From Acidobacteriaceae bacterium (GTDB lineage: Bacteria > Acidobacteriota > Terriglobia > Terriglobales > Acidobacteriaceae), in assembly GCA_025360645.1 (NCBI GenBank), contig JANYBT010000022.1:1-64000 (forward strand): a stretch of 64,000 nucleotides of DNA, written 5' to 3'. Under the pieces are notes generated by a model. It saw only the letters and a list, made by a program, of their open reading frames with translations. It did no database searches and had not been told where the DNA came from. The position numbers and the translations under genes are program-made. Shown here piece after piece: positions 47,012 to 51,805 of this stretch (positions are counted from its first letter, which is position 1; the number at the start of each line of letters is the position of its first letter).

Positions 47012-49156
47012 ATGAAATATATTTCAACCACCGCCTTGTTCCTGCTCCTCGCGGCCGCTACTTACCAGAGCGCCCAGAACCCCGCCGCTCCTGCTTCGCT
47101 TCTGGGTTTTCGTAACCCCGCCGCGGAAAATGCGGCCGAGGCGCGCTTCCTGGCCGTGCCCGACCCCAAACTCGCCGAGCAGCACCTGAAGACCCTCACC
47201 CAGGCGCCTCATGTTGCCGGCACTCCTGAGGACAAGGCCACAGCCGATTACGTCGCGGCGAAATTTCGCGAGGCCGGCCTGGAAACCCAGATCGTCGAAT
47301 ACAAGGCCTGGATTAACTACCCCTCTGAAATCAGCGTAGACCTCACCGCGCCCGCCGGCGTCACCATGCACGGCCCCACTCCCGAGCATGTCGAAGGCGA
47401 TCCTTTTCAGGACGATCCCCGCATCATCAACGCCTTCAACGGCATGTCTCCCTCCGGCGATGTGGAGGCCGACGTCGTCTATGCCAACTATGGCTCCCCG
47501 GAAGATTTTGATCGTCTGAAGGCCATGAATGTGGACGTGCGCGGCAAGATCGTGATCGTCCGCTACGGCGAAAACTTCCGCGGCGTCAAAGCCTTTGTCG
47601 CCCAGGAACGTGGTGCAGCGGCCGTTATTATTTACTCCGATCCCAAAGACGACGGCTATTACCGCGGCGATGCTTATCCCAAAGGTCCCTGGCGCCCGGC
47701 CACCGCGGTGCAGCGTGGTTCCATCGGCTACATGTTCCAGTTTCCCGGCGATCCCACCACTCCCGGAGTGGCCTCCACCCCCGGTCTTGCGAACGACAAG
47801 CGTCTGACTCCCCAAGAGTCGCCGCAGGTCCCGAAAATTCCCACCACCCCGCTCTCTTATCACGACGCCTCGCCCATCCTCGAGCATCTGGGCGGTGCCG
47901 AGTCTCCGCGCGAGTGGCAGGGCGGTTTGCCCTTCACCTACCACGTCGGCCCCGGCCCCGCGAAGGTGCACATGCGCCTCAAGCAGGACTTCCAGTTCCG
48001 CACCATCTGGGACGTCATCGGACGCATCCCCGGCTCCGAGCATCCCGAGCAATGGGTTGTCGCCGGCAATCATCGCGACGCCTGGGTGTATGGCGCGGTG
48101 GATCCTAACAGCGGCACTGCCGCCATGCTGGAAACGGTTCACGGTCTCGGCGAACTGCTCAAATCCGGGTGGAAACCCAAACGCTCCATCGTGATTGGCA
48201 GTTGGGATGCCGAAGAAGAAGGACTGATGGGCTCGACCGAATGGGGCGAGCAGTACGCCGCTCCACTGGCCAATGCCGCCGCCTACTTCAACATGGACGT
48301 CGCCGTCAGCGGTCCTAAATTCGGAGCTTCCTCCGTCCCGACCTTAAAGCAGTTCATCCGCGAGATCACCAAAGCCGTCCCTAATCCCAAGGGCGGAACG
48401 GTGTATGAGGAATGGCAGAAGACGAGCCAGGAAGTCGTAAACACCCACGAAACCAGCAGCGGCACCTACCGTCCGCCCGCCGCCCAGACGAAAGCGGACG
48501 TACCCGTCGGCGACCTCGGCAGTGGTTCCGACTACACCGTCTTCCTGCAACATCTCGGCGTGCCCTCCACCGACATCGGTTCCACCGGCCCCTACGGCGT
48601 TTATCACTCCGCCTTCGACAATTTCAACTGGTTCAAGAAATTCGGCGACCCGGATTTTGTTTACGAACAGCAGATGGCCCGCATCTACGGACTGGAAATG
48701 TTGCGCATGGCCGACTGCGACGCGCTGCCCTACGACTACGAGCAGTACGGCAGGGAAATTGTCACCTACATCGAAACCGCAAAAGCCAAGGCCCAAGCCA
48801 AGCTGGCCGCGCACGCTCCCGAGTTTTCCGCAGCACTAGAGAGTGCCCGCCGCTTCGAGCAAGCCGGCTCAAAAATCGCCGACAAGCGCCGCAAAATGCC
48901 CGCCGACCTGGTCCGCCTGAATTCCGCTTTGCTTGAGACAGAGCGCGCGCTCCTGATTTCCGAGGGCTTGCCCAATCGCCCGTGGTATCGCCACGCCATC
49001 TACGCCCCCGGCCAATACACCGGCTACGCGGCAGTTGTCATCCCCGGAGTGAATGAGGCCATCGACAAGGGCGACGCCGCCCTCACCCAGCAGCAACTGG
49101 CAGTGCTGGCAGCCGCCCTGAATCGCGCCAGCAAGGTGTTAGAGAGCTATCGCTAG
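47012..49156 (+). CDS. M28 carboxypeptidase of the PSMA/glutamate carboxypeptidase II type
   Basis: The 714-residue secreted zinc peptidase has a signal peptide (residues 1-20), then the protease-associated domain (about 120-260), the M28 core and a TFR-like C-terminal helical dimerisation domain (about 600-710). Zinc-site motifs are AGNHRDAW (about 352-359), DPNSGTAAMLE, WDAEEEGLMGSTEW (catalytic Glu in the Glu-Glu pair) and the late His in GVYHSAFDNF. It resembles human glutamate carboxypeptidase II and the transferrin receptor in domain order. It likely trims peptides outside the cytoplasm. Confidence 0.88.
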   Translation: MKYISTTALFLLLAAATYQSAQNPAAPASLLGFRNPAAENAAEARFLAVPDPKLAEQHLKTLTQAPHVAGTPEDKATADYVAAKFREAGLETQIVEYKAWINYPSEISVDLTAPAGVTMHGPTPEHVEGDPFQDDPRIINAFNGMSPSGDVEADVVYANYGSPEDFDRLKAMNVDVRGKIVIVRYGENFRGVKAFVAQERGAAAVIIYSDPKDDGYYRGDAYPKGPWRPATAVQRGSIGYMFQFPGDPTTPGVASTPGLANDKRLTPQESPQVPKIPTTPLSYHDASPILEHLGGAESPREWQGGLPFTYHVGPGPAKVHMRLKQDFQFRTIWDVIGRIPGSEHPEQWVVAGNHRDAWVYGAVDPNSGTAAMLETVHGLGELLKSGWKPKRSIVIGSWDAEEEGLMGSTEWGEQYAAPLANAAAYFNMDVAVSGPKFGASSVPTLKQFIREITKAVPNPKGGTVYEEWQKTSQEVVNTHETSSGTYRPPAAQTKADVPVGDLGSGSDYTVFLQHLGVPSTDIGSTGPYGVYHSAFDNFNWFKKFGDPDFVYEQQMARIYGLEMLRMADCDALPYDYEQYGREIVTYIETAKAKAQAKLAAHAPEFSAALESARRFEQAGSKIADKRRKMPADLVRLNSALLETERALLISEGLPNRPWYRHAIYAPGQYTGYAAVVIPGVNEAIDKGDAALTQQQLAVLAAALNRASKVLESYR

Positions 49157-49233
49157 ATCCTCGCGCAGATTCATAATAATCTTGCTATCGTCATGATATT
49201 GTGACCACACAACGCTGCTCTCGAGGAGATGCG

Positions 49234-49470
49234 ATGAAGCAAATGTCGGCCGGCACATTCAAGTCGAAATGCCTGGCGGTGATGGACCAAGTCTCCCGAA
49301 GCGGCGAACCGGTCTTGATCACCAAACACGGCAAACCCGTGGTCCAGCAGGTTCCTGCCGAAAAGCACGCTGAGGCCATTTTCGGCTATATGGCCGGCAA
49401 GGTGAAAATCATAGGTGACATCGTCGGACCGGTCACGCCGCCGCGAGACTGGGAACTCAAGTCCGGCTGA
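49234..49470 (+). CDS. Phd/YefM-type antitoxin without an intact toxin
   Basis: The 78-residue product begins MKQMSAGTFKSKCLAVMDQV with LITKHGKPVVQQVP, the DNA-binding fold of Phd/YefM antitoxins. It ends with the GKVKIIGDIVGPVTPP.DWE tail that normally grips a PIN-domain (VapC) toxin. GAGGAG precedes the ATG. A partial palindrome GTCATGAT-ATTGTGAC upstream (about 49189-49204) is a likely operator. The toxin that should follow is reduced to its last ~30 codons. Confidence 0.8.
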   Translation: MKQMSAGTFKSKCLAVMDQVSRSGEPVLITKHGKPVVQQVPAEKHAEAIFGYMAGKVKIIGDIVGPVTPPRDWELKSG

Positions 49471-49556
49471 TCACCGCTACATCCACGGTCCAAGGCTCGC
49501 CGCTGGTTACTGCCGATGAACACACCCGCGGAGCGAAAGTCGTGGAGAACATCTGG
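49467..49556 (+). pseudogene. VapC/PIN toxin remnant (C-terminal tail only)
   Basis: Overlapping the antitoxin stop, an open frame reads LITATSTVQGSPLVTADEHT, then RGAKVVENIW. This matches the end of VapC toxins of the Phd-VapC class (LIAATA..h..pLVTAD..ir...V.tiW). The N-terminal two-thirds, including the first acidic metal ligands, is missing. The deletion appears to have joined the antitoxin end to the toxin end. Confidence 0.65.
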
Positions 49557-49572
49557 TTAGGTGAATGTATAT

Positions 49573-49600
49573 TTGATGTCTTGACCGCTTCGACTACAAT
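49573..49600 (+). promoter_or_regulatory. Candidate promoter of the ParD-like gene
   Basis: TTGATG (49573-49578), 16 bases, TACAAT (49595-49600), then six bases to ATG 49607. This again predicts a leaderless transcript. Confidence 0.35.
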
Positions 49601-49606
49601 TTACCC

Positions 49607-49996
49607 ATGGAGATCTTGTTTTCCCCTGAAATCGAAGCCAGACTACTCCGAATCGCTTCAGAAACGGGCAAAGGACTGGACGAAGTCGTACGAGAATTAG
49701 TGGCGAACTACATTGACCACGACGAATGGGTCAGGCAACAGGTTAGGAAGGGACTCGCATCCCTCGATCATGGCACGTTGGTTTCCCACGACGAAGTGCG
49801 CCGCCGCATGAAGCGCCTCATCCGCTCGAAGCGACTGTGCGCCGGTCTCCCGAATTCAACAAATCGCGAGAAGCGGCCCAGCTGGAGACCGCGCAAACTC
49901 TACTTCGCGGGAACGGATTGTTTGGCTGCAGGTGCGCCGCGTAGCAAACCTTCGGTGCTCAGGTCCTCGTCCAGTTCCGGCCAGTGGATACCGTAG
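49607..49996 (+). CDS. ParD/CopG-like antitoxin with run-on C-terminus
   Basis: The first ~76 residues look like a ParD-type antitoxin: ILFSPEIEARLLRIASETGK, DEVVRELVANYI (ribbon-helix-helix-like), then HDEWVRQQVRKGLASLDHGTLVSHDEVRRRM, the toxin-binding part. After KRLIRSKR the reading continues about 50 residues through low-quality sequence that overlaps the opposing DUF2442 gene. The natural stop was probably lost when the downstream ParE toxin was deleted. Genuine length is thus likely about 75-85 residues. Confidence 0.6.
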   Translation: MEILFSPEIEARLLRIASETGKGLDEVVRELVANYIDHDEWVRQQVRKGLASLDHGTLVSHDEVRRRMKRLIRSKRLCAGLPNSTNREKRPSWRPRKLYFAGTDCLAAGAPRSKPSVLRSSSSSGQWIP

Positions 49997-50172
49997 CCGC
50001 CGCCGGCAATCGCCCAATTCCCGCGCTGCGCCGCTGTAACATTGAGCAGTCGCGGATACCACATCAGGGGCACGGTGATGACCCGGCCGTCACGCAGGCC
50101 CACGCTGATCGTATCGTCCGTGGACTGCACGTCGAGCACCCGCTCATCTGCGGCCGTTGCCAAAAAACTCAT
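49900..50172 (-). CDS. DUF2442 domain protein
   Basis: The 90-residue protein has the DUF2442 pattern VQSTDDTISVGLRDGRVITV, WYPRLLN, and IHWPELDEDLSTEGLL at the end. These small proteins often pair with DUF4160 proteins in toxin-antitoxin-like modules. Directly upstream on the same strand a short frame (50228-50169: TFQLLVIQHRDEFWRGME-stop) overlaps its ATG as ATGA and resembles the end of a DUF4160 protein. The partner therefore seems to have been truncated by the neighbouring thiC end. That last point is tentative. Confidence 0.75.
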   Translation of the reverse strand: MSFLATAADERVLDVQSTDDTISVGLRDGRVITVPLMWYPRLLNVTAAQRGNWAIAGGGYGIHWPELDEDLSTEGLLRGAPAAKQSVPAK

Positions 50173-50230
50173 TCCATGCCTCTCCAAAACTCGTCCCGGT
50201 GCTGGATCACCAGCAGTTGAAAGGTGCGCC

Positions 50231-51805
<1,575 letters not shown>

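Follow-up and report, generated by a model that had tools for sequence, protein, structure and literature searches.

Three decayed type II toxin-antitoxin (TA) modules, mutually unrelated, were found between two housekeeping genes in the 64,000-nucleotide stretch of DNA analyzed here (the window). The spacer between a gene for an M28-family peptidase, which ends at position 49156, and thiC, with its stop codon on the minus strand at 50231, comprises 1074 bases (49157-50230) and carries three antitoxin-type open reading frames, Phd/YefM, RelB/ParD-like and DUF2442. Each antitoxin lies beside a remnant of its toxin gene (Table 1), as the original prediction of three decayed modules with surviving antitoxins within 1 kb had it. 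We consider it very probable that three independent modules settled in this spacer and that each then lost its toxin, i.e., that decay was toxin-first.

Table 1. Features of the M28 peptidase-thiC region in the window.
Feature	Position	Strand	Evidence
M28-family peptidase, left flank (TFR dimerisation and PA domains)	47012..49156	+	Pfam PF04389, PF04253, PF02225
Phd operator-like inverted repeat, right half partly degenerate (relatives: TATAGTCAT..ATGACTATA)	49186..49209	.	Alignment of Phd upstream sequence with 7 relatives
Phd/YefM antitoxin ORF, 78 aa; final two codons and stop derive from post-deletion VapC sequence	49234..49470	+	PF02604, TIGR01552; 68-75% identity to 6 close relatives
VapC 3' remnant of 31 terminal codons, lacking a start and its own stop	49464..49556	+	64.5% identity to VapC residues 99-129
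RelB/ParD-like antitoxin, 75 homologous codons; frame continues to 49996, ancestral stop gone	49607..49831	+	68-70% identity to L012, L017, L029; NF048017 E 5.8e-7
ParE 5' remnant of ~8 codons with a substituted start codon	49831..49854	+	Ungapped DNA alignment with L017 through antitoxin end
DUF2442 (DhiA-type) antitoxin, 90 aa, intact	49900..50172	-	PF10387; 85.6% identity to L002
DUF4160 (DhiT-type) 3' remnant, ~25 codons, frameshifted, adjoins thiC stop codon	50140..50229	-	76-77% DNA identity to L002
GGAGAGG, putative DUF2442 ribosome-binding site inside DUF4160 remnant	50179..50185	-	Aligns with GGAGG of paired relatives
thiC, right flank, same direction as DUF2442, 58 bp upstream of DUF2442	50231..51763	-	PF01964, 637.8 bits

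The spacer and its toxin remnants

The source genome is a 3.8 Mb draft in 158 contigs (99.89% complete, 0.08% contamination), and its genus is represented by this one genome. The nearest named relatives of the Phd gene are Acidobacteria. The M28 and thiC genes are also adjacent in relatives L037, L043, L044, L052, and L056. In L037, L043, and L044 the spacer is occupied by a gene for a MarC-type membrane protein (named by sequence motifs, not by profile) instead of TA relics, which means that the relics came to this spacer by local insertion or replacement. The window itself yielded no MarC-like sequence. Intact orthologous pairs were found in related genomes for all three modules.

The Phd gene scored above the curated cut-offs of both PF02604 (31.6 vs. 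29.8 bits) and TIGR01552 (27 vs. 20.8). In related genomes a gene for a 129-residue VapC follows Phd, its start overlapping or adjoining the Phd TGA. The Acidobacteria modules of this type (e.g., L009, L013, and L021, with antitoxins 72-75% identical to that of the window) keep VapC, whereas the window lacks VapC codons 1 to about 98. Alignment with the relatives showed that the last Phd codons run straight into VapC codon ~99, so that about 300 bp are deleted, beginning at the toxin start codon. What follows the antitoxin is thus not a cognate toxin gene but the last 31 codons of one, and none of 2000 shuffles reached the score of this stub against residues 99-129 of the orthologous VapC. Its stop was lost through one extra base. 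The VapC identity originally proposed for the LVTADEHTRGAKVVENIW frame was borne out, and no intact toxin was present in another frame at the locus. The proposed fusion of Phd to the last 30 codons of VapC was not, as the stub lacks a start and lies in a different frame; the antitoxin extends two codons beyond the junction and then stops. The inverted repeat upstream of Phd is, judged from its sequence, a putative operator.

For the second antitoxin, the RelB-family models of NCBIfam were closest, although the score against NF048017 (29.6 bits) was below the cut-off of 50, and a Pfam profile search returned no antitoxin match. The earlier name, ParD-like, is corrected to that extent, while the loss of stop and toxin that went with it is real. 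The partner in relatives is a toxin of the ParE/RelE superfamily. In L017 ParE is intact and its start codon overlaps the stop codon of the antitoxin gene; in the window both of these overlapping signals are substituted. ParE is cut to its first 18 codons in L012 and to its first 35 in L029. Of the four closest copies of the module, three (the window, L012, and L029) thus have a damaged toxin gene and only L017 an intact one. The 45 bp after the ParE stub (49855-49899) gave no match above chance, with 1034 and 553 of 2000 shuffles scoring as high. A loose match to the ParE 3' end in this interval (EAAQLETAQT vs. KAAAVEIARVL) was rejected on the same grounds.

The DUF2442 gene, the only one of its family in the genome, scored 80.7 bits against PF10387 (cut-off 23.9). 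In paired relatives DUF4160 comes first, its 3' end overlapping the start of the antitoxin gene. In the window there is no intact DUF4160 gene directly upstream; the partner is cut off against thiC, as had been suggested, and the DUF4160 sequence that is kept begins 57 nt before the start codon of DUF2442. Over about 88 bp it has 76-77% DNA identity to the paired relatives with one extra base, and its score was reached by 0 of 2000 shuffles. No DUF4160 match was found in the whole source genome. The motif GGAGAGG may serve as the ribosome-binding site of DUF2442; the site is also kept in seven other partnerless DUF2442 loci, which retain just 13-63 nt of DUF4160 before the antitoxin start. We do not claim that deletion end points cluster before the ribosome-binding site, since longer remnants were scored as damaged and the partnerless sample is biased to short ones. 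In L010 (1772-2646) DUF4160 appears to be split: its first codons are separated from DUF2442 by about 830 bp, and an unrelated frame resembling a short-chain dehydrogenase occupies the gap.

TA modules are clustered in relatives too. L002 (1339-2140) has a DUF4160-DUF2442 pair convergent with a ParE gene, the same arrangement as in the window, and in L009 (1441-2163) a fragment of DUF4160 neighbors a Phd-VapC pair that is intact.

One-sided loss in related genomes

In 200 genomes of the family, DUF4160 was missing at 30 of 92 DUF2442 loci, the window included and fragments merged in the count. In the reverse direction DUF2442 was missing at only 3 of 65 DUF4160 loci. Two of these lie at contig ends, one on contig G155:C236 (15510 bases), which ends 176 bases after the DUF4160 match, and one where the match starts with base 1 of the contig. 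The DUF4160 of the third locus carries a frameshift of its own. Thus, none of the 65 loci held an intact DUF4160 clearly without DUF2442. Among the 36 DUF2442 loci nearest to the kind in the window, 11 were without a partner and nine more had a damaged or shortened one.

A similar picture was obtained for the RelB-like antitoxin in these genomes. Its 46 relatives were followed by a full ParE gene, adjacent or overlapping, in 21 cases, by a damaged one in 13 and by none at threshold in 12, leaving 25 of 46 loci without intact ParE. When the search was made from the toxin side, all of the 30 best ParE loci had an antitoxin reading frame directly upstream (29 intact, one frameshifted). Fisher p-values were 2.7e-8 for DUF2442/DUF4160 and 1.5e-6 for RelB-like/ParE, both too small because the loci share ancestry.

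The Phd/VapC family behaves differently. The module was complete in 27 of 29 relatives and the toxin was lost in two, so the loss of VapC in the window is an exception for its family and the tendency to lose toxins is not universal. The one-sidedness is strong but family-dependent, being present for RelB-like/ParE and DUF2442/DUF4160 and absent for Phd/VapC, and the original expectation that toxins are removed first applies to the former two families only. The overall balance was the opposite in a marine survey with other criteria, where orphan toxins (4386) outnumbered orphan antitoxins (3099) (PMC12654330).

Selection on the surviving antitoxins

Omega was estimated with a codon model written for this analysis, and the values are averages over the window branch, part of which predates the toxin losses. 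For DUF2442 omega was 0.07, with omega = 1 rejected (2dlnL 23.8) and no difference from the background. Phd was slightly relaxed at 0.22 (2dlnL 10.8 against omega = 1). The RelB-like gene, at 0.33, was indistinguishable from 1 (2dlnL 1.67), and the VapC stub was unconstrained (2dlnL 7.0 against the background, in a test on 29 codons). DUF2442 and Phd are thus still under purifying selection on a branch that includes the time before the losses. The term decayed modules used originally fits the toxins and undersells these two antitoxins. An order of constraint of DUF2442 over Phd over the RelB-like gene would be expected if the first two still act, but is no proof of it.

Expression of DUF2442 may depend on its neighbor. 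The 58 bp between thiC and DUF2442 contained no terminator-like site, and read-through from thiC would be one way in which the antitoxin is expressed. A TPP riboswitch before thiC would have placed DUF2442 under thiamine control, but no Rfam family was found at threshold between 48000 and 54000.

Order of decay and fate of the antitoxins

Altogether, the remnants and the family counts support that the toxin was lost first. We propose that the Phd-VapC, RelB-like-ParE, and DUF4160-DUF2442 modules each settled independently in the M28-thiC spacer. VapC would then have been lost by the deletion beginning at its start codon, ParE by deletion of all but its first codons together with substitutions in the overlapping stop and start, and DUF4160 by a deletion that starts at the thiC stop codon and reaches into its 3' end. 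With the antitoxin present, a toxin deletion would do no harm and would spare the cell the module's cost and risk. Were the antitoxin to go first, the cell would be exposed to free toxin and selection would act against the loss; decay is therefore expected to pass through an antitoxin-only state. For one of the three families this asymmetry has been seen at the bench, as a Thermus plasmid with DUF4160/DUF2442 could be introduced without the first (DUF4160) but not without the second (DUF2442) open reading frame (PMC12724237). The antitoxin-only end product may drift away, as the RelB-like gene would already be doing, or be kept, as may be the case for DUF2442, which presumably still makes protein, and perhaps for Phd, which should still yield a nearly normal antitoxin.

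That the losses were instead random with respect to toxin and antitoxin, in a dispensable spacer where the window catches three antitoxin-only states by chance, seems improbable to us. All the losses are deletions or frameshifts of a common kind, the evolution of the RelB-like gene and of the VapC stub looks neutral and toxin loss is not general in Phd/VapC, but passive decay does not account for the strong family-wide one-sidedness of the other two families. An error of assembly or sequencing is more improbable still. Although the frameshift in DUF4160 and the missing stops resemble errors and the draft is in many contigs, point errors cannot remove about 300 bp of VapC or the greater part of ParE and of DUF4160; moreover, the flanks are syntenic, the VapC stub carries many substitutions and the genome is nearly complete with little contamination.

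A further reading concerns the survivors, namely that the antitoxins were kept as useful, either in anti-addiction against related toxins on incoming elements or as regulators, while the toxins were shed. The low omega values of DUF2442 and Phd, the kept ribosome-binding site and most of the operator-like repeat are in agreement with this, as are the matching intact toxins carried by close relatives and the lack of a resident DUF4160 toxin for DUF2442 to restrain. Such a role has already been proposed for orphan antitoxins. However, the toxin losses may be recent and the low omega inherited, and the RelB-like gene is relaxed, so we regard retention for use as possible but on the unlikely side. 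Less likely again is the specific version in which the deletion beside thiC made DUF2442 a thiC-linked anti-addiction gene, expressed by read-through and directed against incoming DUF4160 modules. If true, toxin-shedding with antitoxin retention would be a common route to self-immunization in this bacterial family.

Toxin-first decay, our preferred reading, is clear at this locus but ordinary, since a one-sided loss of this sort is seen many times among related genomes in two of the three families. The ideas that orphan antitoxins stem from degraded modules and may act in anti-addiction are already established. Among Pseudomonas putida relatives, the fraction of loci without an intact toxin was 52% for xre-res, 27% for higBA and 23% for brnTA; as in the window the antitoxin is kept and the toxin truncated or missing, frequently in some families and rarely in others (PMC7280312). 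Those are other TA families, and there three decayed modules do not share a spacer as they do in the window. Beyond that study, a toxin-centered count was made here for one pair, and another pair was searched reciprocally with profiles. Orphan antitoxins of Klebsiella pneumoniae (2253 occurrences) are likewise antitoxin reading frames without a toxin in a former TA context; they were inferred from gene content (PMC7192599), whereas the remnants and junctions in the window can be read in the sequence. DhiTA of Dickeya dadantii, a validated module with DUF4160 and DUF2442 (PMC8198452), and the Persistence Enhancing Module on plasmids of Thermus (PMC12724237), which had no effect in E. coli, share the Pfam domains and toxin-first gene order of the third module. 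For these relatives, neutralization of a DUF4160 toxin by DUF2442 has been shown. In the window, nothing is left of such a module except the antitoxin gene and a frameshifted 3' end of DUF4160. New at this locus is a clean triple example with readable junctions, together with counts made in both directions for two families. With three unrelated modules inside 1 kb and with family-wide counts taken from both sides, the order of TA decay is supported directly by comparison, and the locus supplies concrete antitoxin-only genes with which anti-addiction can be tested.

Other TA loci were seen elsewhere in the genome. Loci L202, L203, and L204 (contigs C37, C22, and C103) hold apparently intact modules, one in which ParE is paired with an antitoxin of another type and two of the Phd/PIN kind. 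On contig C2 (L205, 685-1041) a short YefM-type frame accompanies a RelE-like open reading frame of only 47 residues, which has the look of a fourth decayed module.
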